Shown in pieces: positions 3,376-47,197 of a stretch of 64,000 nt of DNA (position 1 is its first letter; each line of letters begins with the position of its first letter). The stretch comes from Acorus gramineus. Taxonomy: Eukaryota > Streptophyta > Magnoliopsida > Acorales > Acoraceae. The notes beneath the pieces are model-generated. The model saw only the letters and a program-made list of their open reading frames with translations, was not told the origin of the DNA and made no database searches. The stretch lies in the NCBI GenBank assembly GCA_030737835.1, contig CM060848.1, forward strand, positions 7,958,063-8,022,062, read 5' to 3'. The position numbers were made by a program, and so were the translations under genes.

Positions 3376-5228
3376 GAAGGAGTCTCCACGCATGGATAGA
3401 TGACACGAACCCCAAAGGGGCTATGTCACGATCGCCCACGAACTGGAAAGATCTCCTACCCGGAAGGTGGAAAGACACCGACTTTGCAAAGCAGTCGATG
3501 CTGGCGTGACTAGCTGAGAGCCAATCCATTCCCAGGATGGCATCGAAGTCCGTCATGGCGAGCTCTACCAACTCTACTGGAAACTCATGCTCCGCAATCG
3601 CCACGGTACACCCTCGGTAAACAGAACGGAGGAGAATACGGTCTCCGACGGGCAATGATACCTCCAGCACAACATCAAGAGGGGCGGACACCACGCCCAT
3701 CCGTCTCGCAAAAACGGGAGACACGAACGAGTGCGTGGCTCCGGAATCAAATAGCACATATGCAGGGAGCTGGGAGATCAAAACAATACCTCGGACCACG
3801 CAACCATCTAAAACTCGACCCTGAACAAACTGCGGTTGAGGAGCAGGGGCACGCCTCGCATGCTGCACTGGCTGCCTCCTCTGGTCAACTGCTGCTGACG
3901 CTGTGGCTGCTGCTGCTGGCGTGGCTGCTGGTGCAGCACACGGGGTCGGCCAGCATCAGGGCAATTATATAAAATATGCCCGACGCGCTGACAATGGTAA
4001 CAGCGCCGCATCTCCGGTTGCCTGGCCTGGACTGGTACTGCCGCAATGGGTGCTGGACCTCGCGCTGGCACCACATCGACTGGAGTAGCGGCGGCCGCTG
4101 ACTGATCAAAGCGGGGCCGCTTCTTCTTGCGATGTCCCTGGTCCTGGCTCCTGGGGGGCCTCTGGTCTGCAGAAGGGGTTGGAAACCCCAAAGGGACCCC
4201 AAGGTCTCGCTCGACCGTCCTCGCACGAGACACCAAGTCTGAGTACCTCGTGAACGCCTGTGAGGTGACATGCACCCGGATGGTGCTAATGAGACCCATC
4301 TCGAAACGACGGCATCGCGTCTCCTCATCCATCACCAAGGCGGGGGCGAACCGGAAAAGCCTCGTGAAACGTGTGGAGTAGTCAGCGACTGACATGGAGC
4401 CCTGCGTCAGCTGCTCGAACTCTCGCATCACGATCTGGCGTGTCGAAAACGGGAAGTACTCCTCCAGAAAGTACCTCCGGAACCCAGCCCATAGAAGTCG
4501 CTCCACTCCCTCGGGGATGTCCACCGATCGGGTAGCCCACCAGTCGGCGGCGCTACCCTTCAACATGAAGGTGGCCAGTGAGACACGCTGGCGGTCAGTG
4601 CAGTGCATGGTCGAGAAGATCTTGTCTACCTCCATCAACCAACACTCATGGGCAAGGGGGTCCATCGTCTCGCCATGGAACTCGGGAGGGTGAAGCTTCA
4701 AAAAGGCAGTGAGGCCGCTCTGATGCACTCGTGCCGCAGCCTCTAGCTCCACCTCCCTCTCCAGGGGATCCTGAACTCCCACTACCGGAATCACCACGGG
4801 GACAGGGGGTACGTCGGGCATAACCGGTGGATCTGCCACCAAGGGGACCTGTGGAACTGCCTCGCGGGCCGCCCTCAGCTCCTGGATCTCTCGTGCCTGC
4901 TCAGCTAACGCCCTAGTCTGGGCCTCCAGTGCCCTAGTCTGAGTCTCCACTAGATCTGCGATACGAGCGTAAGCACGCTCCCATGCAGGAGGCTCCTGCG
5001 CCGGTCCTGGCCCCATAGCCGAGGACCCTCCAGTAGACTCCTCACCTCTGGTAGGTCCGGAAACCTCCAAAGGCCGAGAGGGACCACGTCCACGCATTCC
5101 TCTGCGAGGAGGCATATCAGCAACCTAAGAAAACAGACACTAGGATCAGAATACTCATATAGAAATCCTAGGACTCATCTCTAAGAAAACAATTGGCTCT
5201 GACAGGACCAGGCTCTGATACCAACTTT
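3376..5228 (-). mobile_element. Ty3/Gypsy (chromovirus, Del/Tekay-like) internal remnant with gag and protease
   Basis: The internal part of copy A reads on the minus strand. A primer-binding site complementary to initiator tRNA-Met (TGGTATCAGAGCC, 5223-5211) follows the LTR at 5229. Next comes a gag frame (5115-3808) with a basic N terminus, a coiled-coil-like middle, the retrotransposon gag domain (FLKLHPPEFHGETMDPLAHE region) and a CCHC zinc knuckle (CYHCQRVGHILYNCP). A retropepsin-like region with a DSGATHSF active-site motif follows (about 3868-3400). Reverse transcriptase, RNase H and integrase are not seen between protease and the next LTR. The element is therefore an incomplete fossil. 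Confidence 0.85.
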
Positions 5229-11059: not shown

Positions 11060-11414
11060 CATGTGACTCATTTATTGGATTGTCCCATGCGGGCCTATAG
11101 GTCGGGCTCGTGGGTGGGCCAGTGGGTCGGGTCCGTGGGCAGGCTTGCAGACCAACCCGAGTGGGCCCAATTCAGACGAGCCTCCAAGCCGGGCTTTCAA
11201 GACTCGGGCTTTTTGGGGACCCTTACCCCACTCCCCGTGCACGTATGTCTTATTAGAGGTGGACAATGCCATCGAATCCCATCCCATCACCACCACCACC
11301 ACCATCACATCTACACCTAGTGGTCTCTCTCATACCGCACCAAACCCTAACTTTCAATCTCCACAATCATTCAAAACCTCCCCTTATATGCCACACCTTT
11401 GTTCTTTCCAACCA
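11060..11414 (+). repeat. Tandem promoter duplication, distal copy
   Basis: This 355-bp unit is repeated almost unchanged at 11415-11764, ending immediately before the protease start region. It starts CATGTGACTCATTTATTGG and ends TTCTTTCCAACCA. Its first half is rich in GGGTCGGGC/GGGCC words that look transposon-derived. Its second half holds a (CAC)n run, a CTCATACCGCACC segment and CTTATATGCC, a possible TATA-like site. The two copies differ by scattered substitutions and in the length of the CAC run. Confidence 0.9.
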
Positions 11415-11764
11415 CATGTGACTCATTTATTGGATTGTACCATACGGGCTTATAGGTCGGACTCGTGGGTGGGCCAGTGGGTCGGGTCCGTGGGCAGGCT
11501 TGTAGGCCAACCCGAGTGGGCCCAATTCAGACGAGCCTCCAAGCCGGGCTTTCAAGACTCGGGCTTTTTGGGGACCCTTACCCCACTCCCCGTGCACGTA
11601 TGTCTTATTAGAGGTGGACAATGCCATCCAATCCCATCCCATCACCACCACCATCACATCTACACCTAGTGGTCTCTCTCATACCGCACCAAACCCTAAC
11701 TTTCAATCTCCACAATCATTCAAAACCTCCCCTTATATGCCACACCTTTGTTCTTTCCAACCAC
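11415..11764 (+). promoter_or_regulatory. Tandem promoter duplication, proximal copy (putative promoter and 5' UTR of the aspartyl protease)
   Basis: Second copy of the unit at 11060-11414, directly upstream of the protease. CTTATATGCC near 11730 lies about 75 bp before the chosen ATG and is a candidate TATA element; that is inference. The open frame continues upstream through this copy, but its composition is repeat-like and no family member carries such an N terminus, so I treat it as noncoding. Confidence 0.65.
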
Positions 11765-11806
11765 ATGCACACTTCTCACAAACGAAGGTGGGACAAAAAA
11801 ACAACA

Positions 11807-13204
11807 ATGTCTCTTCTGTCTGTGTTCATTCTCATTGCAACCACCACCCAACTCACCCCATGCAATGCAAAGCTCACCCAACCCACTTCACTAGTCTTGG
11901 GTCTCATACACTCTAGAGCCCTTTTAGCACGAAAAGCTTCAAATCCAACAGAAATGCTTGACATGTTGGAGCCACTGATAGAACACAGAGATGGGTATTT
12001 ATTCCCACTCAAGCTAGGCACACCCCCACAAGTCTTCCAAGTGTACATGGACACTGGCAGTGACCTAACATGGGTGCCCTGTTGGAACCTCACTTTTGAT
12101 TGCATGAATTGTGATGACTATAGGATCTATAAGTTGATGGCCTCTTTCTCCCCATCCCTCTCCTCCTCCTCCCACCGGGACCTCTGCGGAAGCCCATTGT
12201 GCTCCAACGTCCACAGCTCCGACAACCCTTACGACACTTGCGCAGAGGCTGGTTGTTCGTTGAGCATCCTCTTGAAGGGCACATGCCCAAGGCCTTGCCC
12301 TTCATTCTCCTACACTTATGGTGGTGGTGGGGTTGTCACAGGGATCCTCACTAGGGATACACTAAGGTTCCATGGGGGTGACACTGGTGTCCTTAGGGAT
12401 GTAACAAATTTTTGTTTTGGGTGTGTGGGAACTACTTATAGAGAACCCATTGGGATTGTAGGGTTTGGGAGGGGCTCCCTTTCCTTACCTTCACAATTAG
12501 GGTTCCTTAACAAAGGCTTCTCTCATTGCTTCTTAGGGTTCCAATTTGCCAACAACCCTAACATGACTAGCCCTCTTGTAATGGGAGATCTTGCCATATC
12601 CTGCAAGGATCACTTTAAATACACACCCATGTTACGAAGTCCAATGTTCCCTAACTACTATTACATTGGGTTGGAAGCAATAGTAGTTGGCAACAATGTG
12701 TCAATTGAGGTGCCCTCAAATTTGAAGGCATTTGATTCTCAAGGAAATGGAGGGCTACTCATCGACTCCGGTACAACATACACTCAGCTCCCTAGGCCGC
12801 TCCATATTCGGCTTCTCTCGGGGATACAATCGAAGATGGCTTACCAACGATCAAGCAAGTTCGAGAAGCGAACAGGGTTTGAGCTTTGCTACAAGGTTCC
12901 TTGCTCGAAGAACTCCTGCATCGGAGATTTTCCCTCGATAACCTTACATTTTGTTAAAGATGTCAAGCTAGTCTTGCCAAAGGAGAACTGCTTCTATGCA
13001 ATGGCAGCTCCAGTGAACAACCATGTAGTGAAGTGTTTGCTTTTCCAAAGCATGGAAGATGAGACCTATGGACCAGCTGGTGTTCTTGGGAACTTCCAAC
13101 AGCAGAATGTGGAGGTTGTGTATGACTTGGAGAAGGAGAGGATTGGATTTCATCCAATGGACTGTGCTTCCTCAGCAGCCTCTCATGGACTACTTGAAAA
13201 GTAA
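11807..13204 (+). CDS. A1-family (pepsin-like, nepenthesin-type) aspartyl protease, secreted
   Basis: This single-exon gene encodes 465 residues and is predicted to be an endopeptidase entering the secretory pathway. Residues 1-21 form a hydrophobic signal peptide ending CNA. The first catalytic motif is DTGS at 82-85 (in YMDTGSDLTWVPC) and the second is DSGT at 320-323. The cysteine-rich insertion typical of plant nepenthesin-type enzymes lies at about 92-165. GFGRGSLSLPSQLG is at 220-232, and the C-terminal NFQQQNVEVVYDLE..RIGF block is at 429-448. Both aspartates are present, so it looks active. The closest known type is the group of Arabidopsis At4g16563 (probable aspartyl protease); substrate unknown. 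I chose the ATG at 11807 because it gives the signal peptide; an in-frame ATG at 11765 would place a basic stretch before it. Length is normal for the family. A candidate AATAAA signal lies near 13498. Confidence 0.92.
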   Translation: MSLLSVFILIATTTQLTPCNAKLTQPTSLVLGLIHSRALLARKASNPTEMLDMLEPLIEHRDGYLFPLKLGTPPQVFQVYMDTGSDLTWVPCWNLTFDCMNCDDYRIYKLMASFSPSLSSSSHRDLCGSPLCSNVHSSDNPYDTCAEAGCSLSILLKGTCPRPCPSFSYTYGGGGVVTGILTRDTLRFHGGDTGVLRDVTNFCFGCVGTTYREPIGIVGFGRGSLSLPSQLGFLNKGFSHCFLGFQFANNPNMTSPLVMGDLAISCKDHFKYTPMLRSPMFPNYYYIGLEAIVVGNNVSIEVPSNLKAFDSQGNGGLLIDSGTTYTQLPRPLHIRLLSGIQSKMAYQRSSKFEKRTGFELCYKVPCSKNSCIGDFPSITLHFVKDVKLVLPKENCFYAMAAPVNNHVVKCLLFQSMEDETYGPAGVLGNFQQQNVEVVYDLEKERIGFHPMDCASSAASHGLLEK

Positions 13205-20680: not shown

Positions 20681-21487
20681 TTACTCTTTCCTAATGAAAT
20701 TGAAACCTTCAAATTGCTCTAAAATTTCTAATCCAGAAAGTGTTTGAGGAGCAACTCTCCATTCCTGCTTGCCATTAAATCGATTCTTATTTGCCCGGAA
20801 GCTATGATCATGTGGAAGGAACTGACGATGAGCCATATAACAGTGCTTCTTTCCATGTTTCAATCTAACAGAACATGTGTCTTTGTTATAACAAGGACGA
20901 GCTAGTGCCTCTTTAGTGCTCCATCTTGAGAAAATAGCATATGCAGGGAAGTCATTTATAGTCCACAAAAGTGCCGCATGCATTTGAAAAGTCTCTTTCT
21001 TTAAGTGATCATAAGTGGAAATCCCATCTGTCCATAACTCCTTCAACTCCTCCATCAATGGTCGCATATACACATCAATATTATTGTCAAGCCCAATTGG
21101 ACCAGGAATAAGTAAAGACAAAATCATGTTAGGCTGCTTCATACACATCCATGGGGAGAAGTTATATGGAAACACAATAACAGGCCATGTGCTATATGTA
21201 CTACTCATGGTTCTAAATGGATTAAACCCATCACTTGCTAGAACAAGTCAGACATTACGAGGCTCGGTCCTAAAATGTTCATATTGATCATCAAAATATT
21301 GCCATGCTGGAGAGTTTCCAAGATGTCATTGTTTCTCGTCCTGGATCCCTTCCTCATGATGTCATGTCATGAAGGAAGAAGTCTTTGATGACATAAACAA
21401 CCTCTGTAACCTTGGCTTCAAGGGAAAGTGATGAAGGACCTTGGCAGGAACTTTCTTCTTCTTCTTGGAGTTCCCAACTTCCTCGTC
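20681..21487 (-). pseudogene. CACTA TNP2 transposase, C-terminal fragment
   Basis: A 175-codon open segment (21208-20681) carries the TNP2 core (MSSTYSTWPVIVFPYNFSPW, ELKELWTDGISTYD, LLWTINDFPAYAIFSRWSTKE). Upstream, to 21487, is readable homology (LKPRLQRLFMSSK, then WQYFDDQYEHFRTEPRNV, LVLASDGFNPF) containing at least one stop. Homology ends at the LINE insertion point near 21488. The downstream part of the transposase, past LEQFEGF, is not seen. Confidence 0.85.
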
Positions 21488-30398: not shown

Positions 30399-30407
30399 TA
30401 TTTAATT
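30399..30407. repeat. 9-bp target site duplication, left copy
   Basis: TATTTAATT, repeated exactly at 31323-31331. Nine bases is the Mutator superfamily length. Confidence 0.85.
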
Positions 30408-31322
30408 GGGTTAAAGACATCTAAGTCCCTACAAACATGGGAAAACCCATATAAGTCCCTACTAAAATTAGGACAGACGTACGAGTCCCTGAAAACTCAG
30501 AAAAACCCAATTATCATCCCTGAGTTAAATTTTCATCCAAACTTAACGGAATATTCCCAGAATATTCTGTCACATATAATTGTGTTGACATTGAAGTCCT
30601 TATAACCCCTGAAAGACTTTTACATTAAATTGTGTACACATTGCAGTCCCTGTAAACAATCATAAAGACAAATTAGTCCTTGCAAAAGACAAAATTGCCC
30701 CTGAAAGATTTTTACATTTAATTGGATAGACATTACAGTCCTTATAAATAATCGTAAAGACAAATTGGTACATGTAAAAGACAAAAATGCCCCTGAAGAA
30801 TTTTTACATTTAATTGTGTAGAAATTACAGTATTTTAGAGGGTATTTAATTTTTAAATTGCAATGTCTGCACAATTAAATGTAAAAATCTTTCAAGGGTA
30901 TTTTTGTCTTTTAGAGGGACCAATTTGTCTTTACGATTGTTTATAAGGACTGTAATGTCTATTCAATTATATGTAAAAGTCTTTCAAGGGCAATTTTATC
31001 TTTTACAGGGACTAATTTGTCTTTATGATTATTTATAGGGACTACAATATATACACAATTTAATGTAAAAGTCTTTTAGGGGTAATTTTATCTTTTGCAG
31101 GGACTAATTTGTCTTTATGACTGTTTATAAGGACTTCAATGTCTATACAATTATATGTGATGGAATATTCTAGGAATATTCCATTACATTTGGATGGAAA
31201 TTTAACTCAGGGATGATAATTGGGTTTTTCTGAGTTTTCAGGGACTCGTACGTCTGTCCTAATTTTAGTAGGGACTTATATGGGTTTTCCTATGTTTGTA
31301 GGGACTTAGATGTCTTTAACCC
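30408..31322. mobile_element. Mutator-like foldback MITE (915 bp) with tandem repeats in both arms
   Basis: The element starts GGGTTAAAGACATCTAAGTC and ends with its inverted counterpart, so each half is nearly the reverse complement of the other about a centre near 30865. An exact 9-bp duplication, TATTTAATT, flanks it. Each arm contains about three copies of a ~92-bp unit (TTTTACATTTAATTG, then ACATTACAGTCC, AAAGACAAATT, AAAGACAAAATTGCCCC). There is no open reading frame. The structure could fold into one very long hairpin RNA if transcribed. Confidence 0.88.
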
Positions 31323-31331
31323 TATTTAATT
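31323..31331. repeat. 9-bp target site duplication, right copy
   Basis: Exact partner of TATTTAATT at 30399-30407. Confidence 0.85.
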
Positions 31332-33406: not shown

Positions 33407-33411
33407 TAAGT
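33407..33411. repeat. 5-bp target site duplication of the LTR array, left copy
   Basis: TAAGT immediately before the first LTR; repeated at 47193-47197 immediately after the third LTR. Confidence 0.9.
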
Positions 33412-36179
33412 TGTAACACCTGTGCATTTTCTCTTATTTATATATTTGATTTAAATATATAAATAGGATATTTGAATTAAAATTATTGTATTTTGTGTGT
33501 TTTTAAATTTTGGCCCATTTAGTGTATCCTTATGGGCCCATTTTAGTTTGCAATTTTAAATACTATTTGTTCATTTTAAAAATTGTATATATTTTCTTTC
33601 GAAGATTTTCAAGGTTTTAAATGGTTACAATTTTATAAAATTTTAGAGCTCAAAAGATTAAGTTTTGAGATTTCATTATTATTTATTTTCAGGGACTTAA
33701 CTTTGAATTATGAATTTCTTGTAATAAGATGCAATGACCTATCTGTAATTCATATAGGGACCTATTTGTAAATCCGAAACAATCCAGGGCCAGTTTGTAA
33801 TTTTTGTTAGGTTTAGATATCTAATTATATATGTTGGGGTGAAAGAAAAAAAATGTGTGCGGCTGTGTATTCTATTCGGCAGAGAGAGAGAGAGAGAGAG
33901 AGGTACTCTTCTTGGCTATTGATTTTCTTTTAAATTATTGTTATTTATTAGTGATATTAGATTTATGTTTAGGTTATTAAGTCTTCTTTTTTTTAAAATA
34001 AAATTAGGGTTTTGATTTATTTTCATGGTTAAATATATTTTTATGTTATGGGATTTTTAGTTTTTGATCAAATTAGAGTTTTGATATATATACGTTCATG
34101 TTGTTAGATTTTTATGATTTTATAAAAAAAAAAAAACAAGGGTTTTGATCTATAATTTATTATTATTAGATCTATGTTAGGTATTTGGATTTTTGAGTCT
34201 TCATAAACTTAGGGTTTTGATTTATCATTTATTTTAAAGAATAGATATGTGTTTAGATTATTAAACTATGAGTTTTTAATTTATCATACTAGGTTTATGA
34301 TTTATACAAATCCATAAGATGATAAGTTTTATTTGTTTTCAACTTTTACTAATTAATAGTTTATTTTTATAGAGAAAAATATATGTTTTCATGTTATTAT
34401 ATCAATTTTTGTTATTTTATTATTATTTTGAATTTTCTGGATATTGTCTTTTTCTGTGTTTTATCTTTTCTGGTTTTGTCTTTTAGTGTTTGGTTAGATG
34501 GTAAATAGGTTTTTATTTTTCTTCTTAGGTTCTATTATATTTTCTTTTGTATGATTTATATGAAATAAATTTAGATCATTGGGTATAAAGATTTATACCT
34601 ATTGATTATGATTAGAGAAATTAGGTCTAGGCTTGAATTATAGGTTTTAATTAATAATTTATTTGGTTCATCTAGGTTGTAAATTTTGTTGCGGGCTTCA
34701 TTCTCCGGACCTAGGGTCCATTCGAGGTGAGTGGGCTTATCGATTTATTTCATGTGAGCTTTTGCTCTATAACGCTGAATTTCATATGCCAATGATATTT
34801 ATTGTGATAAATTTGCATGATTTGCATATTTTTTTCATATTGGTCAAATTTCATTTTTATTAAATAAAATTGCATGATTTAATTCATTCATTATGTCATT
34901 TAAAATAGCATGTATTATGCTATTCATGTTTCAAGAATTAATGTAATACATTTTCTAATGCTTATGTTTTTGAAATAACATTTGGATTAAGGATTATCAT
35001 TTTTGATATTTTTGGAAAAATTTAGGACTAGTGGAGACAACCTAGTCCTAGGTGATTTTATTAAGATGCACATCATAGCATATTTCAGGAATAAATCCCC
35101 CCGTTGTATTTCGCCTTTGGGGAGGAAGGTCTAGGACTCGAAGAGTCCCAAGATCGGTGAGGGGTGTGGTAAAGCATTCCTTGTAGCGGCGGATTCCTTT
35201 GTTTGGAGTTTGCAGCAACCGGGGCATCCTGTGCTGGTGTTCTCGTAGTGATGGCAGCGGCGACCCATCAGCGTCTTCTAGATCCGACGTCTCCTCGAGG
35301 GAGCTTTTTGAGCGATTTAGTCGCTTGGGGCTTGGCACACCTATTTTGGGGAAACGGTTCTTCCGATTAAGAACCCGACCTGGTCATATCATTTATCATT
35401 TAAACCTCATGATTTCTACAACGTGGGTCAATGATTGGGCCACATGATTGCTTTAAAAAATATATATTTTTTTAAGCTCATGCATAATTTATATTGATTT
35501 ATTAAAGGAAATTCTTGTTTTTAATATAACTTTATGTTATGTATATATATGATTGTATCATTTAACTCTCATGCTTTTTCTTGTGTGGGCCAAGGATTGG
35601 GCCATGTGCTTGCATTAAAATGTTTTTTTTTAAGTTCATGATTTTAAATCGATTTAATAAAATAAAAGATTTATTAAAAGAAATTTTGAATTTTATATAA
35701 CTTATTTTTATATATAACTGTCACGTGAAGTAATTTGTCAATGGGCTTATTCACTGAGTTAATTGCTCACCCTTTTCGATATGGGCTGGTTGTTTCATAA
35801 CCAGGTATCGCATATTTCGAGGATCAAATTGAAGTTTGGGCTTTTCGCATCTTTCATGAATATCTTCGAAGTAGTGGTTCAAATGTGAATTATAGTCACG
35901 ATCGACTATTTGGGTTTGTTCAGTTTAGATGGCTCCCACAGGGGTGTTTTATTGTGTATTTTCTTTTAGTATCTTGTTTCCGCAAAACTCTGATATTTTG
36001 TAAAACCATTGGTGATTTAAAAACATTGGATATTATTTATATTTATTATCATCTGTTTTATTATATTGTTATCATAAAAAAAAAAAAAGAGCTGCAAATT
36101 TTTGTCTTATATTTAGATTAAATTTAGTAGCGACGCATTTACCGTCCGATAAACGGTTAGGTAAATGTGGGGCGTTACA
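33412..36179 (+). mobile_element. Array LTR 1 (2768 bp)
   Basis: Starts TGTAACACCTGTGCATTTTC and ends GTGGGGCGTTACA. It is followed by TGGTATCAGAGCC at 36182, the initiator tRNA-Met primer-binding site. Near 33880 there is a GA microsatellite, and the GGGCTTATTCACTGAG..GCTCACCC block near 35740 is the counterpart of the block in the other large LTRs. Nearly identical to LTRs 2 and 3. Confidence 0.92.
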
Positions 36180-38927
36180 GATGGTATCAGAGCCACGTCC
36201 TGTCGGAGCCTAGGTTAGGGTTTTGTCTAGAAAAAAAAAGGGTGTTATTATTTGTGACATTTGTTATTTCATTTAGGATTTTCTTTATGACAGTAAGGGA
36301 TTGTAGTGTTGTCTCTATTACAGGTCATTCAACGTATGTTCTTTTTAGGGTTCCACACATTCATTCACTTTATTGGATTTGCAAAACTTTTAGTAAAGAA
36401 GTTTACAATCTTGATGTCTACTTTTCACATAACGATTGTCGTCGGTGAACAAGTTGTCACCAAGGTTCGCTTTCTCTCTTGCTTGGTTCAGATCAATGGG
36501 CATTAGATGCTTACTAATCTCTTCATTCTCGATATTCTTGGTTTCAAAGTTATCTTTGGCATGGATTTGTTGTTAGCCTGAACAAGTGTTGATTGTTTTT
36601 CAAAAGTTGTGACCTTTCGTATTCTCAACTGACAATCGTTCTGCTTTGGGGGTTTTGGTGGATCATATACGATCGGAGTCGTCTTTTCTCCTCATGCTCA
36701 GAGATTGCTAGATGAACAATGTCAGGGATATCTATCCATCATTGTGGACTTGAAGGCCTAAGTTAGTATAATTCCTATTGTATCTTAATTTCTTGAGGTA
36801 TTTCCAGATGAATTGTCATGTCTTCTCATGATCGTGACATCGAGTTTTCTATCGATCCCATTCTTGATTTTCTATGAGCCTAAGCTTAGTTAGCATGTGA
36901 AGTTTAGGACTTAAGTTTGATCATCCTAAGGAGATTATATTGGTCTATAAAAAAAAAAAAATTATTTGATTATTTTGGTTACCCTAGAGCCTAAATCTAT
37001 TGATTTCTTATTAAAGGGGAAGTGACCCATATTTTTTTTATATATATATACACGTTTTTACCTTGCCATAAATTTAGCGGTTACTCATGTTTATTTATTT
37101 ATTTAAATGAAAGATTTCAAATCATATTTATATAAATTGTAATTATATTTTTAGTTTTCAAAGTCAAATTTAAGTAAATCATATCGATATATTCAAATCT
37201 TAATAATTCAAAAATAAAAATATTACTAGATCTTTCTTAATTCAACTCTCTACATATTTATTACATTAATTTTATTACAATATAACTCTCTATATATAAT
37301 TTACACGGCTTATAAATTTATTATGCTATATATTAAATGGAATGAGCTTTAAATTCTTTTAATACATTATTTATACTTGTCTATCATGAAGGTTTAATTT
37401 TTATATATACAATATTTAATATGTTAAATATTTTTCTACTTTATGCTATGCATATCGATATTACAGTTGCATCTTGTAAATTCAGGTTCATATGCATTTA
37501 GCATGCATATAAATCTAGCTATATCTTTAAGAGTTTAGATTGCATTATTGGATCTTAGGACATCCCACCTGAGTTTTTGGATACCCTATCTTATAGAGCT
37601 TAGTTATTTGGGTTCATTGTAAATTATTATTTTCTTAGAGCCTCAAGATAAGCCAGTATGAGAGTCATTCCTTTGAAGCCTAGGATGAGTTGGGTCAATT
37701 AGGATTGATGCATATAGGATTTGCATTCTTATTAGTGGATATTCTATGTAAGAGCATATGTGGTGGATGATAGCTCATACTAAATATACGTTGAAGCATG
37801 CTCACATGAGAGGCATATCTTAACAACTGATATTTTCAAATTGTTCAATATGGCCATGTACCCACAATTTTATTAGGATGCTTTTCAGGTTTTGTATAAT
37901 GTCACAGATGGTTCAATCAATCCGTGAATGTCCATGTCAGCAGATGGGTTTCTTATATAGATAAATTCTAAAGATTGTAAATATCTTTAGTTTCATCTTG
38001 TTGTCATTATTATTGCCCGTATGTTGACGATACAAGTTTGATCATTTATGGTATGGGACGTAGATGAGCCTAACTTGTACAATTATGTATGAAATTGTTT
38101 GACGTGATTGTTTTTTTGATATTGTCAATGTTTGCATTGTATTAGTTGAACCACCTATGGTATGGGACATAGGTGGGCTTGGCTTATGCATTTGGTTGCT
38201 TGTAATGTCTTTGCTTGTTCTGTGCAAATGGAATCACCCATAGTATAGGACATGGGTGAGCTTGACTTGTATATTTTTATTGTATTGTTTGCCTTTTGCT
38301 TATGTTGTATGAGTTATAACACCTATGATGTGAAGAATGGGTGGATTTGACATATACGTTTAATTATTGCAAATGATTGTTATCATTGTTTGTGATGTAT
38401 AAGTTCATCCACTGTGATTTGGGTCACTAGTAGAGTGGCGCAGCGGAAGAATTGTGGGTATAATTTATATGATTATTTTGTTGTGTGATTGTATGTCACT
38501 TGTATTGATATTGATTGAAACTTTAATGCAGAGCATTGATAGTTTTGCTTGTGCATTTAATTGAATATTGTTTGTAGGGTATAAGTTAGAATCTTATACC
38601 ATTTTTTTCATATTATTGAGCTTGTTAGGTATGAGTTGGATTTGTAAGCCGACTTATATAATTATTGTATGGATGTCCATTTGTTTGATTGTTTGTGGGG
38701 TATAAGTTGGATTCTTATACCATTTTCTATATTATTGTGCTTGTTAGGTATTACACGGACGTGTAACCCTACTAGTAAAATGATTGTATTGATGTTGTTA
38801 TGAGTTAAAATTGTAAGACTACTCTTACAACTATTGGTTGGATGATTGTTATCATTGGATGTCATATATCTTTTATTTTGTGTTCTCCCCTGAATTTAGA
38901 GGACTAAATTCCTAAAGGGGGGAAGTA
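36180..38927 (+). mobile_element. Array internal region 1
   Basis: Begins with the primer-binding site and ends with a polypurine tract AAAGGGGGGAAGTA. Short stretches resemble Gypsy protease and the start of reverse transcriptase, but no full domain is readable. The second half holds repeated segments built on CACCTATGGTATGGGACATAGGTGGGCTTG-like words. Broken fossil. Confidence 0.85.
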
Positions 38928-39404
38928 TGTAACACCTGTGCATTTTCTCTTATTTATATATTTGATTTAAATATATAAATAGGATATTTGAATTAAAATT
39001 ATTGTAATTTGTGTGTTTTTAAATTTTGGCCCATTTAGTGTATCCTTATGGGCCCATTTTAGTTTGCAATTTTAAATACTATTTGTTCATTTTAAAAATT
39101 GTATATATTTTCTTTCGAAGATTTTCAAGGTTTTAAATGGTTACAATTTTATAAAATTTTAGAGCTCAAAAGATTAAGTTTTGAGATTTCATTATTATTT
39201 ATTTTCAGGGACTTAGCTTTGAATTATGAATTTCTTGTAATAAGATGCAATGACTTATCTAGTTATCTGTAATTCATATAGGGACCTATTTGTAAATCCA
39301 AAACAATCCAGGGCCAGTTTGTAATTTTGTTAGGTTTAGATATCTAATTATATATGTTGGGGTGAAAGAAAAAAAAAATATGTGTGCGGCTGTGTATTCT
39401 ATTC

Positions 39405-39438
<34 letters not shown>

Positions 39439-41704
39439 CTCTTCTTGGCTATTGATTTTCTTTTAAATTATTGTTATTTATTAGTGATATTAGATTTATG
39501 TTTAGGTTATTAAGTCTTCTTTTTTTTTAAATAAAATTAGGGTTTTGATTTATTTTCATGGTTAAATATATTTTTATGTTATGGGATTTTTAGTTTTTGA
39601 TCAAATTAGAGTTTTGATATATATACGTTCATGTTGTTAGATTTTTATGATTTTATAAAAAAAAAACAAGGGTTTTGATCTATAATTTATTATTATTAGA
39701 TCTATGTTAGGTATTTGGATTTTTGAGTCTTCATAAACTTAGGGTTTTGATTTATCATTTATTTTAAAGAATAGATATGTGTTTAGATTATTAAACTATG
39801 AGTTTTTAATTTATCATACTAGTTTTATGATTTATACAAATCCATAAGATGATAAGTTTTTATTTGTTTTCAACTTTTACTAATTAATAGTTTATTTTTA
39901 TAGAGAAAAATGTATGTTTTCATGTTATTATATCAAGTTTTGTTATTTTATTATTATTTTGAATTTTCTGGATATTATCTTTTTCTGTGTTTTATCTTTT
40001 CTGGTTTTGTCTTTTAGTGTTTGGTTAGATGGTAAATAGGTTTTTATTTTTCTTCTTAGGTTCTATTATATTTTCTTTTGTATGATTTATATGAAATAAA
40101 TTTAGATCATTGGGTATAAAGATTTATACCTATTGATTATGATTAGAGAAATTAGGTCTAGGCTTGAATTATAGGTTTTAATTAATAATTTATTTGGTTC
40201 ATCTAGGTTGTAAATTTTGTTGCGAGCTTCATTCTCCGGACCTAGGGTCCATTCGAGGTGAGTGGGCTTATCGATTTATTTCATGTGAGCTTTTGCTCTA
40301 TAACGCTGAATTTCATATGCCAATGATATTTATTGTGATAAATTTGCATGATTTGCATATTTTTTTCATATTGGTCAAATTTCATTTTTATTAAATAAAA
40401 TTGCATGATTTAATTCATTCATTATGTCATTTAAAATAGCATGTATTATGCTATTCATGTTTCAAGAATTAATGTAATACATTTTCTAATGCTTATGTTT
40501 TTGAAATAACATTTGGATTAAGGATTATCATTTTTGATATTTTTGGAAAAATTTAGGACTAGTGGAGACAACCTAGTCCTAGGTGATTTTATTAAGATGC
40601 ACATCATAGCATATTTCAGGAATAAATCCCCCCGTTGTATTTCGCCTTTGGGGAGGAAGGTCTAGGACTCGAAGAGTCCCAAGATCGGTGAGGGGTGTGG
40701 TAAAGCATTCCTTGTAGCGGCGGATTCCTTTGTTTGGAGTTTGCAGCAACCGGGGCATCCTGTGCTGGTGTTCTCGTAGTGATGGCAGCGGCGACCCATC
40801 AGCGTCTTCTAGATCCGACGTCTCCTCGAGGGAGCTTTTTGAGCGATTTAGTCGCTTGGGGCTTGGCACACCTATTTTGGGGAAACGGTTCTTCCGATTA
40901 AGAACCCGACCCGGTCATATCATTTATCATTTAAACCTCATGATTTCTACAACGCGGGCCAAGTATTGGGCCACATGATTGCTTTAAAATATATATTTTT
41001 TAAGCTCATGAATTTATATTGATTTATTAAAGGAAATTCTTGTTTTTAATATAACTTTATGTTATGTATATATATGATTGTATCATTTAACTCTCATGCT
41101 TTTTCTTGTGTGGGCCAAGGATTGGGCCATGTGCTTGCATTAAAATGTTTTTTTTTAAGTTCATGATTTTAAATCGATTTAATAAAATAAAAGATTTATT
41201 AAAAGAAATTTTGAATTTTATATAACTTATTTTTATATATAACTGTCACGTGAAGTAATTTGTCAATGGGCTTATTCACTGAGTTAATTGCTCACCCTTT
41301 TCGATATGGGCTGGTTGTTTCATAACCAGGTATCGCATATTTCGAGGATCAAATTGAAGTTTGGGCTTTTCGCATCTTTCATGAATATCTTCGAAGTAGT
41401 GGTTCAAATGTGAATTATAGTCACGATCGACTATTTGGGTTTGTTCAGTTTAGATGGCTCCCACAGGGGTGGTTTATTGTGTATTTCCTTTTAGTATCTT
41501 GTTTCCGCAAAACTCTGATATTTTGTAAAACCATTGGTGATTTAAAAACATTGGATATTATTTATATTTATTATCATCTGTTTTATTATATTGTTATCAT
41601 AAAAAAAAAAAAAGAGCTGCAAATTTTTGTCTTATATTTAGATTAAATTTAGTAGCGACGCATTTACCGTCCGATAAACGGTTAGGTAAATGTGGGGCGT
41701 TACA
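38928..41704 (+). mobile_element. Array LTR 2, shared middle LTR (2777 bp)
   Basis: Same ends as LTRs 1 and 3. Preceded directly by the polypurine tract and followed by the primer-binding site at 41707, with no target duplication on either side. Its GA microsatellite (39411-39434) is longer than in the other copies. At several variable sites it agrees with LTR 3 against LTR 1, and at some others LTR 1 and LTR 3 agree against it. Confidence 0.92.
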
Positions 41705-44428
41705 GATGGTATCAGAGCCACGTCCTGTCGGAGCCTAGGTTAGGGTTTTGTCTAGAAAAAAAAAGGGTGTTATTATTTGTGACATTTGTTATTTCATTTA
41801 GGATTTTCTTTATGACAGTAAGGGATTGTAGTGTTGTCTCTATTACAGGTCATTCAACGTATGTTCTTTTTAGGGTTCCACACATTCATTCACTTTATTG
41901 GATTTGCAAAACTTTTAGTAAAGAAGTTTACAATCTTGATGTCTACTTTTCACATAACGATTGTCGTCGGTGAACAAGTTGTCACCAAGGTTCGCTTTCT
42001 CTCTTGCTTGGTTCAGATCAATGGGCATTAGATGCTTACTAATCTCTTCATTCTCGATATTCTTGGTTTCAAAGTTATCTTTGGCATGGATTTGTTGTTA
42101 GCCTACACAAGTGTTGATTGTTTTTCAAAAGTTGTGACCTTTCGTATTCTCAACTGACAATCGTTCTGCTTTGGGGGTTTTGGTGGATCATATACGATCG
42201 GAGTCGTCTTTTCTCCTCATGCTCAGAGATTGCTAGATGAACAATGTCAGGGATATCTATCCATCATTGTGGACTTGAAGGCCTAAGTTAGTATAATTCC
42301 TATTGTATCTTAATTTCTTGAGGTATTTCCAGATGAATTGTCATGTCTTCTCATGATCGTGACATCGAGTTTTCTATCGATCCCATTCTTGATTTTCTAT
42401 GAGCCTAAGCTTAGTTAGCATGTGAAGTTTAGGACTTAAGTTTGATCATCCTAAGGAGATTATATTGGTCTATAAAAAAAAAAAAAATTATTTGATTATT
42501 TTGGTTACCCTAGAGCCTAAATCTATTGATTTCTTATTAAAGGGGAAGTGACCCATATTTTTTTATATATATATACACGTTTTTACCTTGCCATAAATTT
42601 AGCGGTTACTCATGTTTATTTATTTATTTAAATGAAAGATTTCAAATCATATTTATATAAATTGTAATTATATTTTTAGTTTTCAAAGTCAAATTTAAGT
42701 AAATCATATCGATATATTCAAATCTTAATAATTCAAAAATAAAAATATTACTAGATCTTTCTTAATTCAACTCTCTACATATTTATTACATTAATTTTAT
42801 TACAATATAACTCTCTATATATAATTTACACGGCTTATAAATTTATTATGCTATATATTAAATGGAATGAGCTTTAAATTCTTTTAATACATTATTTATA
42901 CTTGTCTATCATGAAGGTTTAATTTTTATATATACAATATTTAATATGTTAAATATTTTTCTACTTTATGCTATGCATATCGATATTACAGTTGCATCTT
43001 GTAAATTCAGGTTCATGTGCATTTAGCATGCATATAAATCTAGCTATATCTTTAAGAGTTTAGATTGCATTATTGGATCTTAGGACATCCCACCTGAGTT
43101 TTTGGATACCCTATCTTATAGAGCTTAGTTATTTGGGTTCATTGTAAATTATTATTTTCTTAGAGTCATTCCTTTGAAGCCTAGGATGAGTTGGGTCAAT
43201 TAGGATTGATGCATATAGGATTTGCATTCTTATTAGTGGATATTCTATGTAAGAGCATATGTGGTGGATGATAGCTCATACTAAATATACGTTGAAGCAT
43301 GCTCACATGAGAGGCATATCTTAACAACTGATATTTTCAAATTGTTCAATATGGCCATGTACCCACAATTTTATTAGGATGCTTTTCAGGTTTTGTATAA
43401 TGTCACAGATGGTTCAATCAATCCGTGAATGTCCATGTCAGCAGATGGTTTTCTTATATAGATAAATTCTAAAGATTGTAAATATCTTTAGTTTCATCTT
43501 GTTGTCATTATTATTGCCCCTATGTTGACGATACAAGTTTGATCATTTATGGTATGGGACGTAGATGAGCCTAACTTGTACAATTATGTATGAAATTGTT
43601 TGACGTGATTGTTTTTTTGATATTGTCAATGTTTGCATTGTATTAGTTGAACCACCTATGGTATGGGACATAGGTGGGCTTGGCTTATGCATTTGGTTGC
43701 TTGTAATGTCTTTGCTTGTTCTGTGCAAATGGAATCACCCATAGTATAGGACATGGGTGAGCTTGACTTGTATATTTTTATTGTATTGTTTGCCTTTTGC
43801 TTATGTTGTATGAGTTATAACACCTATGATGTGAAGAATGGGTGGATTTGACATATACGTTTAATTATTGCAAATGATTGTTATCATTGTTTGTGATGTA
43901 TAAGTTCATCCACTGTGATTTGGGTCACTAGTAGAGTGGCGCAGCGGAAGAATTGTGGGTATAATTTATATGATTATTTTGTTGTGTGATTGTATGTCAC
44001 TTGTATTGATATTGATTGAAACTTTAATGCAGAGCATTGATAGTTTTGCTTGTGCATTTAATTGAATATTGTTTGTAGGGTATAAGTTAGAATCTTATAC
44101 CATTTTTTTCATATTATTGAGCTTGTTAGGTATGAGTTGGATTTGTAAGCCGACTTATATAATTATTGTATGGATGTCCATTTGTTTGATTGTTTGTGGG
44201 GTATAAGTTGGATTCTTATACCATTTTCTATATTATTGTGCTTGTTAGGTATTACACGGACGTGTAACCCTACTAGTAAAATGATTGTATTGATGTTGTT
44301 ATGAGTTAAAATTGTAAGACTACTCTTACAACTATTGGTTGGATGATTGTTATCATTGGATGTCATATATCTTTTATTTTGTGTTCTCCCCTGAATTTAG
44401 AGGACTAAATTCCTAAAGGGGGGAAGTA
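41705..44428 (+). mobile_element. Array internal region 2
   Basis: Nearly identical to 36180-38927 from primer-binding site to polypurine tract. No full domain readable. Broken fossil. Confidence 0.88.
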
Positions 44429-47192
44429 TGTAACACCTGTGCATTTTCTCTTATTTATATATTTGATTTAAATATATAAATAGGATATTTGAATTAAAAT
44501 TATTGTAATTTGTGTGTTTTTAAATTTTGGCCCATTTAGTGTATCCTTATGGGCCCATTTTAGTTTGCAATTTTAAATACTATTTGTTCATTTTAAAAAT
44601 TGTATATATTTTCTTTCGAAGATTTTCAAGGTTTTAAATGGTTACAATTTTATAAAATTTTAGAGCTCAAAAGATTAAGTTTTGAGATTTCATTATTATT
44701 TATTTTCAGGGGCTTAGCTTTGAATTATGAATTTCTTGTAATAAGATGCAATGACCTATCTGTAATTCATATAGGGACCTATTTGTAAATCTGAAACAAT
44801 CCAGGGCCAGTTTGTAATTTTTGTTAGGTTTAGATATCTAATTATATATGTTGGGGTGAAAGAAAAAAAAAATATGTGTGCGGCTGTGTATTCTATTCGG
44901 CAGAGAGAGAGAGAGAGAGAGAGGTACTCTTCTTGGCTATTGATTTTCTTTTAAATTATTGTTATTTATTAGTGATATTAGATTCATGTTTAGGTTATTA
45001 AGTCTTCTTTTTTTAAAATAAAATTAGGGTTTTTATTTATTTTCATGGTTAAATATATTTTTATGTTATGGGATTTTTAGTTTTTGATCAAATTAGAGTT
45101 TTGATATATATACGTTCATGTTGTTAGATTTTTATGATTTTATAAAAAAAAAAAAACAAGGGTTTTGATCTATAATTTATTATTATTAGATCTATGTTAG
45201 GTATTTGGATTTTTGAGTCTTCATAAACTTAGGGTTTTGATTTATCATTTATTTTAAAGAATAGATATGTGTTTAGATTATTAAACTATGAGTTTTTAAT
45301 TTATCATACTAGTTTTATGATTTATACAAATCCATAAGATGATAAGTTTTATTTGCTTTCAACTTTTACTAATTAATAGTTTATTTTTATAGAGAAAAAT
45401 GTATGTTTTAATGTTATTATATCAATTTTTGTTATTTTTTATTATTTTGAATTTTCTGGATATTGTCTTTTTCTGTGTTTTATCTTTTCTGGTTTTGTCT
45501 TTTAGTGTTTGGTTAGATGGTAAATAGGTTTTTATTTTTCTTCTTAGGTTCTATTATATTTTCTTTTGTATGATTTATATGAAATAAATTTAGATCATTG
45601 GGTATAAAGATTTATACCTATTGATTATGATTAGAGAAATTAGGTCTAGGCTTGAATTATAGGTTTTAATTAATAATTTATTTGGTTCATCTAGGTTGTA
45701 AATTTTGTTGCGGGCTTCATTCTCCGGACCTAGGGTCCATTCGAGGTGAGTGGGCTTATCGATTTATTTCATGTGAGCTTTTGCTCTATAACGCTGAATT
45801 TCATATGCCAATGATATTTATTGTGATAAATTTGCATGATTTGCATATTTTTTTCATATTGGTCAAATTTCATTTTTATTAAATAAAATTGCATGATTTA
45901 ATTCATTCATTATGTCATTTAAAATAGCATGTATTATGCTATTCATGTTTCAAGAATTAATGTAATACATTTTCTAATGCTTATGTTTTTGAAATAACAT
46001 TTGGATTAAGGATTATCATTTTTGATATTTTTGGAAAAATTTAGGACTAGTGGAGACAACCTAGTCCTAGGTGATTTTATTAAGATGCACATCATAGCAT
46101 ATTTCAGGAATAAATCCCCCCGTTGTATTTCGCCTTTGGGGAGGAAGGTCTAGGACTCGAAGAGTCCCAAGATCGGTGAGGGGTGTGGTAAAGCATTCCT
46201 TGTAGCGGCGGATTCCTTTGTTTGGAGTTTGCAGCAACCGGGGCATCCTGTGCTGGTGTTCTCGTAGTGATGGCAGCGGCGACCCATCAGCGTCTTCTAG
46301 ATCCGACGTCTCCTCGAGGGAGCTTTTTGAGCGATTTAGTCGCTTGGGGCTTGGCACACCTATTTTGGGGAAACGGTTCTTCCGATTAAGAACCCGACCC
46401 GGTCATATCGTTTATCATTTAAACTTCATGATTTCTACAACGTGGGCCAAGGATTGGGCCACATGATTGCTTTAAAATATATATTTTTTTAAGCTCATGA
46501 ATTTATATTGATTTATTAAAGGAAATTCTTGTTTTTAATATAACTTTATGTTATGTATATATATGATTGTATCATTTAACTCTCATGCTTTTTCTTGTGT
46601 GGGCCAAGGATTGGGCCATGTGCTTGCATTAAAATGTTTTTTTTTAAGTTCATGATTTTAAATCGATTTAATAAAATAAAAGATTTATTAAAAGAAATTT
46701 TGAATTTTATATAACTTATTTTTATATATAACTGTCACGTGAAGTAATTTGTCAATGGGCTTATTCACTGAGTTAATTGCTCACCCTTTTCGATATGGGC
46801 TGGTTGTTTCATAACCAGGTATCGCATATTTCGAGGATCAAATTGAAGTTTGGGCTTTTCGCATCTTTCATGAATATCTTCGAAGTAGTGGTTCAAATGT
46901 GAATTATAGTCACGATCGACTATTTGGGTTTGTTCAGTTTAGATGGCTCCCACAGGGGTGGTTTATTGTGTATTTCCTTTTAGTATCTTGTTTCCGCAAA
47001 ACTCTGATATTTTGTAAAACCATTGGTGATTTAAAAACATTGGATATTATTTATATTTATTATCATCTGTTTTATTATATTGTTATCATAAAAAAAAAAA
47101 AGAGCTGCAAATTTTTGTCTTATATTTAGATTAAATTTAGTAGCGACGCATTTACCGTCCGATAAACGGTTAGGTAAATGTGGGGCGTTACA
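44429..47192 (+). mobile_element. Array LTR 3 (2764 bp)
   Basis: Starts TGTAACACCTGTG after the polypurine tract and ends GGGGCGTTACA, followed by the target duplication TAAGT. Confidence 0.92.
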
Positions 47193-47197
47193 TAAGT
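47193..47197. repeat. 5-bp target site duplication of the LTR array, right copy
   Basis: TAAGT, exact partner of 33407-33411. Confidence 0.9.

Follow-up and report, generated by a model that had tools for sequence, protein, structure and literature searches.

A single insertion of a tandem, or almost immediately tandem, non-coding long terminal repeat retrotransposon in Acorus gramineus

The 64,000-nucleotide stretch of the Acorus gramineus genome analysed here (the window; contig CM060848.1, positions 7,958,063 to 8,022,062, forward strand) carries a 13.8-kb retrotransposon block. Comparison of the window with itself reveals three direct repeats of 2.77 kb with two 2.7-kb segments between them, which are the three long terminal repeats (LTRs) and two internal regions of a non-coding LTR retrotransposon, enclosed by one target site duplication (TSD), with a primer-binding site (PBS) and a polypurine tract (PPT) in each internal region. 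The evidence throughout is the assembled sequence. The block is built as follows:

33407..33411, no strand: left TSD, TAAGT, a site that is single in two paralogous empty sites
33412..36179, plus strand: LTR1, 2768 bp, with ends TGTAACACC...GGCGTTACA
36180..38927, plus strand: internal region 1, 2748 bp, with no stop-to-stop frame of at least 100 amino acids (aa)
36182..36193, plus strand: PBS TGGTATCAGAGC
37637..37660, plus strand: 24-bp segment kept in internal 1 and lost from internal 2, with AGAG microhomology at its flanks
38914..38927, plus strand: PPT AAAGGGGGGAAGTA, which abuts LTR2
38928..41704, plus strand: LTR2 (the middle LTR), 2777 bp
41705..44428, plus strand: internal region 2, 2724 bp, with no stop-to-stop frame of at least 100 aa
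41707..41718, plus strand: second PBS, immediately 3' of LTR2
44415..44428, plus strand: second PPT, adjoining LTR3
44429..47192, plus strand: LTR3, 2764 bp
47193..47197, no strand: right TSD, TAAGT

LTR2 is joined on its left to the PPT AAAGGGGGGAAGTA and on its right to GA-TGGTATCAGAGC; the PPT join of LTR3 matches that of LTR2, as does the PBS join of LTR1, and neither inner join, on either side of LTR2, shows a TSD. The original prediction of an LTR-internal-LTR-internal-LTR array between a single TAAGT, with a middle LTR flanked seamlessly by a PPT and a PBS, is thus borne out by the borders, the matching outer TSDs and both joins as read directly. Direct LTRs with TG..CA ends, a PBS, a PPT and a 5-bp TSD identify an LTR retrotransposon, and two near-identical internals among three LTRs with a TSD on the outside only identify its tandem form (L3I2). 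Large retrotransposon derivatives (LARDs) are a class of long-LTR non-coding elements, and the element resembles them in its long LTRs, non-coding internals and retained PBS and PPT, while differing in its internal region of 2.7 kb. It is called non-coding because stop-to-stop frames reach 100 aa in neither of the window's two internals, the sequences on which coding capacity was judged. We take the PBS to be of the initiator tRNA-Met type. From its LTR ends and PBS the element, which has no coding domain, may belong to the Ty3/gypsy Tekay lineage, one recognised by the phylogeny of reverse transcriptase, integrase and chromodomain. Neither Rfam (at gathering scores) nor a tRNA scan gave any match in the window.

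The LTRs differ from each other by 16–17 substitutions per pair in ~2760 bp (17 between LTR1 and LTR3) and the internals by five in 2723. The 24-bp segment lost from internal 2 (junction at 43161/43162) is kept in eight other aligned internals of the family. Since each of the five segments has variants of its own, the block is not a stuttered assembly of a single sequence. The structure of three LTRs and two internals, as assembled, is real and exact.

The flanks of the block belong to a dispersed repeat of the genome. When the left flank, one TAAGT and the right flank are joined, they align without interruption to one paralogue on C7 (84% of 454 columns) and another on C5 (78% of 725), each of which has a single, slightly different copy of the target site and so represents the pre-insertion state. 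Therefore the 13.8-kb block entered once, at one duplicated site. The single TAAGT and the contiguous empty sites are strong evidence that the whole block is one insertion, and that part of the original prediction stands.

We surveyed the family in the 398.6-Mb genome by combining three pattern lists: PPT-LTR junctions (133 places at no more than two mismatches, of which the 25 exact ones and 14 of the 35 with one mismatch were used, the 21 carrying GAAGAATG or GAAGGATG being left out as other families), LTR-PBS junctions (109 places; 39 exact and six one-mismatch places used) and LTR starts (121 places; 96 exact used). Among these exact starts, three have both junctions, 25 the PPT only, 12 the PBS only and 56 neither, the last class being a mixture of solo LTRs, truncated copies and copies with mutated junctions. 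The three with both junctions are middle LTRs on C1, C2 (the window locus) and C78; with a fourth on C57, whose start motif is mismatched, four loci in the genome have a middle LTR. The three LTRs without either junction that were read at both ends are all solo LTRs with perfect TSDs (CTACC, GCATA, GAACT), and of 12 stretches checked for their 3' ends nine, including these solos, have the LTR end without a PBS while three lack the end motif. Judged by the starts without an inner junction and by the solos, LTR-LTR recombination is common in this family. Internals with both junctions number 19, spread over 17 loci, and 17 of them are 2716–2773 bp long, the other two being 5648 and 6193 bp. The tandem on C78 has a truncated first unit and that on C57 a shortened internal. 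The long internal at C57:1482868-1489062 was considered as a coding partner and set aside; its examined part (L048) holds foreign sequence between family matches. The block belongs to a non-coding, non-autonomous family.

Two further observations concern family copies elsewhere. In the two C8 copies (L044, C8:13969100; L045, C8:10202900) the first ~850 bp of the LTR are ~82–91% like the window LTR, the remaining LTR ~94–97% and the internal 97%, so that a different module sits at the LTR start. The family LTRs at C78:316471 and in the C1:27543400 region (L014, L040) lie at different loci with a common right flank, GTACCACTCATGGGGAGGAACCTCACAGG; either the LTR travelled with a host repeat, or one site within a repeat was hit twice.

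According to Morales-Diaz et al. (2025, PMC11899658), plants commonly have tandem LTR retrotransposons that share inner LTRs, and these are polymorphic; the window locus is a further case. Of 28 clear tandems in Nipponbare 10 have perfect 5-nt TSDs; the surveyed tandems are mostly gypsy elements, 80% with LTRs more than 95% identical (PMC11899658). They share with the window locus the alternating LTRs, near-identical internals, shared inner LTRs and, where kept, the 5-bp TSD, whereas the 28 clear cases have conserved coding domains and our element has none; our analysis differs also in examining timing and family alleles at one locus. Within the family, tandems are by count indeed far less frequent than solo LTRs, as the original prediction had it for plant genomes, but in plants at large they are described as common (PMC11899658, PMC4717578). 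Tandem TRIMs are common too (PMC4717578; Wukong, PMC4528315; Cassandra arrays, PMC7215508), and L3I2 is the commonest form of maize TA-TRIM array, with 63 of 93 (Gao et al., 2016, PMC4717578). Like the window element, TA-TRIMs are non-autonomous and have a TSD in the examples shown (PMC4717578), but TRIMs are a few hundred bp long and the window unit is 5.5 kb. The same genome also contains a TRIM-like family (PBS join GGGGCGTTACA-ATTGGTATCAGAGC) with tandems of 291-bp period: ~4 units at C58:756400-758400 (L049), three LTR-like units with AGTCA at both outer sides, as read by eye, at C64:1437900-1439300 (L050), and further joins ~290–330 bp apart on C32, C43, C58 and C62.

How did the element become tandem? 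The original prediction was unequal crossing-over between the 5' and 3' LTRs of sister or homologous copies, in which case the middle LTR should resemble LTR3 up to the exchange point and LTR1 beyond it. In the three-way alignment the odd one among 37 variant events is LTR1 in 12, LTR2 in 14 and LTR3 in 11, all interspersed; for the 25 substitutions the split is 9/8/8. We sorted these variants against 19 other family LTRs (some partial, 13 close; one fragment, the C82 5' piece, was dropped). The odd allele is absent from the 13 close copies at 15 of the 25 sites, which we call private and which split 5/5/5, and absent from all 19 at 13, split 4/4/5. When a phase before duplication and a freely placed breakpoint are allowed in a Poisson model of all substitutions, the gain over a star is no more than 0.82 log units with the internals included and 0.03 without them. 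Private sites allow, at the 95% upper bound, 1.25–3.5 changes per lineage before duplication, depending on the breakpoint, against 3.75–5.25 fitted after it. A switch from LTR3-like to LTR1-like in LTR2 was not found at any breakpoint tried. Crossing-over as originally proposed thus agrees with the one insertion, the one TSD, the seamless joins and the LTR-LTR recombination of the family but fails its own test, and the readable pattern of shared variants that was to locate the exchange is not confirmed. From the private 5/5/5 split it follows that the tandem state is about as old as the insertion, and the case for a single insertion of a tandem or near-immediate tandem is strong; an early exchange would be compatible with this, while a late simple crossing-over mappable in LTR2 is disfavoured.

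The same variants were expected to date insertion against duplication, and here raw LTR divergence had to be rejected, as family-shared alleles inflate the LTR differences. At the rate of 1.3e-8 used for ages, the LTRs give 0.22–0.24 My, the internals 0.07 My and the private changes 0.11 My. Among the differences between the internals, four are private changes of internal 1; at the remaining one, internal 2 carries an allele found also in C78, both C8 copies and C66.

The remaining 10 of the 25 odd alleles are found in close family copies, against a chance expectation of 0.22 under uniform mutation. All ten lie within the first 979 bp of the LTR, yet 12 close copies have 40 of their 72 polymorphic sites beyond 985 bp. 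A tree of 16 LTRs over the first 985 bp places LTR2 with C65 3', C82 3', the C3 solo and C78 3' (support 91/90), apart from LTR1 and LTR3, while a tree of 12 full LTRs over the rest of the LTR unites those of the window in one clade (97/92). The ordinary copy C65 (TSD TGTAC) has five of its six LTR-LTR substitutions in the first kilobase, four of them at sites also variable among the window LTRs. Gene conversion, which has been reported in LTR pairs (PMC7251063), is the simplest cause of such mixing; some sites may reflect recurrent mutation, and polishing error is a possible cause as well. LTR sites 364 and 365, for example, look like two deamination products of one CpG and may be recurrent.

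A second complete tandem lies on C1. It has GGACT on both outer sides, a single TSD, but its internals represent different sub-lineages: those of the window group with internal b (98/94), and internal a, which has older alleles between columns 264 and 1442, falls outside. Because internals of two sub-lineages stand under one TSD, this mixed tandem is hard to get by crossing-over of one insertion's alleles without conversion. Unit b of C1 is a possible source for other copies. Copying of the window tandem as such from C1 is rejected, as the window internals are sisters and those of C1 are not.

Tentatively, and at somewhat less than even chances, we favour a dimer formed before integration, so that a non-autonomous element already tandem at, or very near, integration was inserted once. 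An element with 2.77-kb LTRs and a 2.7-kb non-coding internal would have entered the dispersed host repeat after two co-packaged RNAs of the family had been joined by a strand transfer within the repeated R region in the course of reverse transcription, or after two cDNAs had been linked LTR to LTR. Integrase would then have inserted the dimer once, producing the one TAAGT duplication, and gene conversion would probably account for the family alleles that the LTRs afterwards gained in the first kilobase. The anatomy of the block, its one TSD, the empty site, the family, the near-equal divergence of the three LTRs at private sites and the grouping of LTR2's left third with other loci are direct observations, while joining before integration is the step that we infer. 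We favour it because the private 5/5/5 split leaves no long single-element phase; a dimer of two RNAs also lets the middle LTR alone differ on its U3 side, provided that U3 covers the first kilobase, whereas a crossover would demand LTR3-likeness in the left part of LTR2, the left third of which groups elsewhere. The C1 tandem, with one TSD and internals of different sub-lineages, lends support. Frequent intra-family recombination in reverse transcription is described for Onsen (PMC5668417). For four grass elements with one TSD, Sabot and Schulman (2007, PMC1950507) proposed template switching; like the window block, these elements have three LTRs, two internals, a flanking TSD and one integration. 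However, the outer LTRs of those complexes are reported as highly homologous to each other, while the window LTR pairs are about equally diverged; the first third of LTR2 is the outlier in the tree, yet LTR1 and LTR3 differ by as many substitutions as any pair.

Several points weigh against a pre-formed dimer. Outer LTRs should then be identical at birth, yet family-shared alleles set LTR1 and LTR3 apart at seven substitution sites, which calls for later conversion or recurrent mutation in any case; the most different pair in the C1 tandem is that of its outer LTRs (24 substitutions, against 23 for left-middle and 9 for middle-right). Since first-kilobase mixing occurs in the ordinary copy C65 too, a foreign stretch like the left third of LTR2 is not confined to tandems. 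In the first-985-bp tree 11 of the 13 inner forks are open, and the end of the allele mixing cannot be placed at the U3/R border, the LTR having several TATA-like motifs. On one clock the internals are too little diverged when all LTR substitutions are counted (25 versus 5, P=0.006), and less clearly so for private ones (15 versus 4, P=0.07; 13 versus 4, P=0.13).

A serious contender, with a probability of well over a quarter but short of a half, is early unequal crossing-over between a 3' and a 5' LTR, on sister chromatids or homologues, followed by gene conversion from other family members. The LTRs are long, slightly longer than the internal, the starts without inner junctions and the three verified solos speak for frequent LTR-LTR recombination, and conversion-like mixing is known from C65; if the exchange was early, the 5/5/5 split and one-clock internals follow. 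What it does not deliver is an LTR2 that is LTR3-like on the left and LTR1-like on the right: the breakpoint model gains next to nothing, the left third of LTR2 is not LTR3-like, and the exchange must fall early in the insertion's life with separate conversions besides. The present data do not separate this explanation from the dimer.

Two further explanations are both quite improbable. An incoming family cDNA could have recombined homologously with a resident single copy, adding a unit without a new TSD, as is reportedly the case for tandem Ty1 multimers in yeast, and this would explain the mixed C1 tandem and chimeric LTRs; but the window internals are sisters (90/86), as are the 3' two thirds of the LTRs, and the cDNA must therefore come from the window locus or a near twin. 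Alternatively, the block could be an assembly artefact in which haplotypes or repeat paths were joined through the LTR, or polishing swapped family alleles. The units diverge by 0.2–0.6%, which lies in the range of plant heterozygosity, and mis-mapped short reads could bring family alleles into the LTRs. Against this, the units have private substitutions and a 24-bp deletion, middle LTRs occur at four loci, and the confinement of foreign alleles to the first 980 bp is not what uniform mis-polishing would give; published tandems of the same form were, moreover, verified by long reads or by PCR and sequencing (PMC11899658, PMC4717578). Recombination of two neighbouring independent insertions with loss of the intervening DNA, to which the great majority of the complex elements known by 2007 are ascribed (PMC1950507), yields a shared middle LTR but is barely conceivable here, where the outer TSDs match, the empty sites are contiguous and the 3' parts of the three LTRs are one clade.

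Elsewhere in the window we noticed a foldback at 30400-31330, whose 206-bp arms (94% complementary) enclose 92-bp tandem repeats lying in both orientations; a frame for a pepsin-like aspartyl protease at 11612-13204 (Pfam TAXi domains), with a partial ~350-bp tandem duplication at its start or beside it (11060-11767); a frame with a Ty3-type gag at 3808-5124 (minus strand); and a frame with a tnp2 (Transposase_21) transposase domain at 20681-21247 (minus strand), which we take to be of CACTA type.

With 10 of 25 substitutions carrying alleles of close family copies elsewhere, LTR differences are no plain clock here, and the window locus is one at which variants have been sorted into locus-private and family-shared ones. 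Whether plant tandems arise by recombination or by insertion as a tandem was left open in the 2025 survey (PMC11899658), and to this open question the window locus and C1 add two tandems without a simple crossover signature. It is possible, though less likely than not, that the family regularly integrates as pre-formed dimers of two different family members. If true, LTR2 would hold the first-kilobase haplotype of the second RNA, the C1 internals would come from two sub-lineages under one TSD, and retrotransposon tandems would be products of insertion rather than of later recombination.

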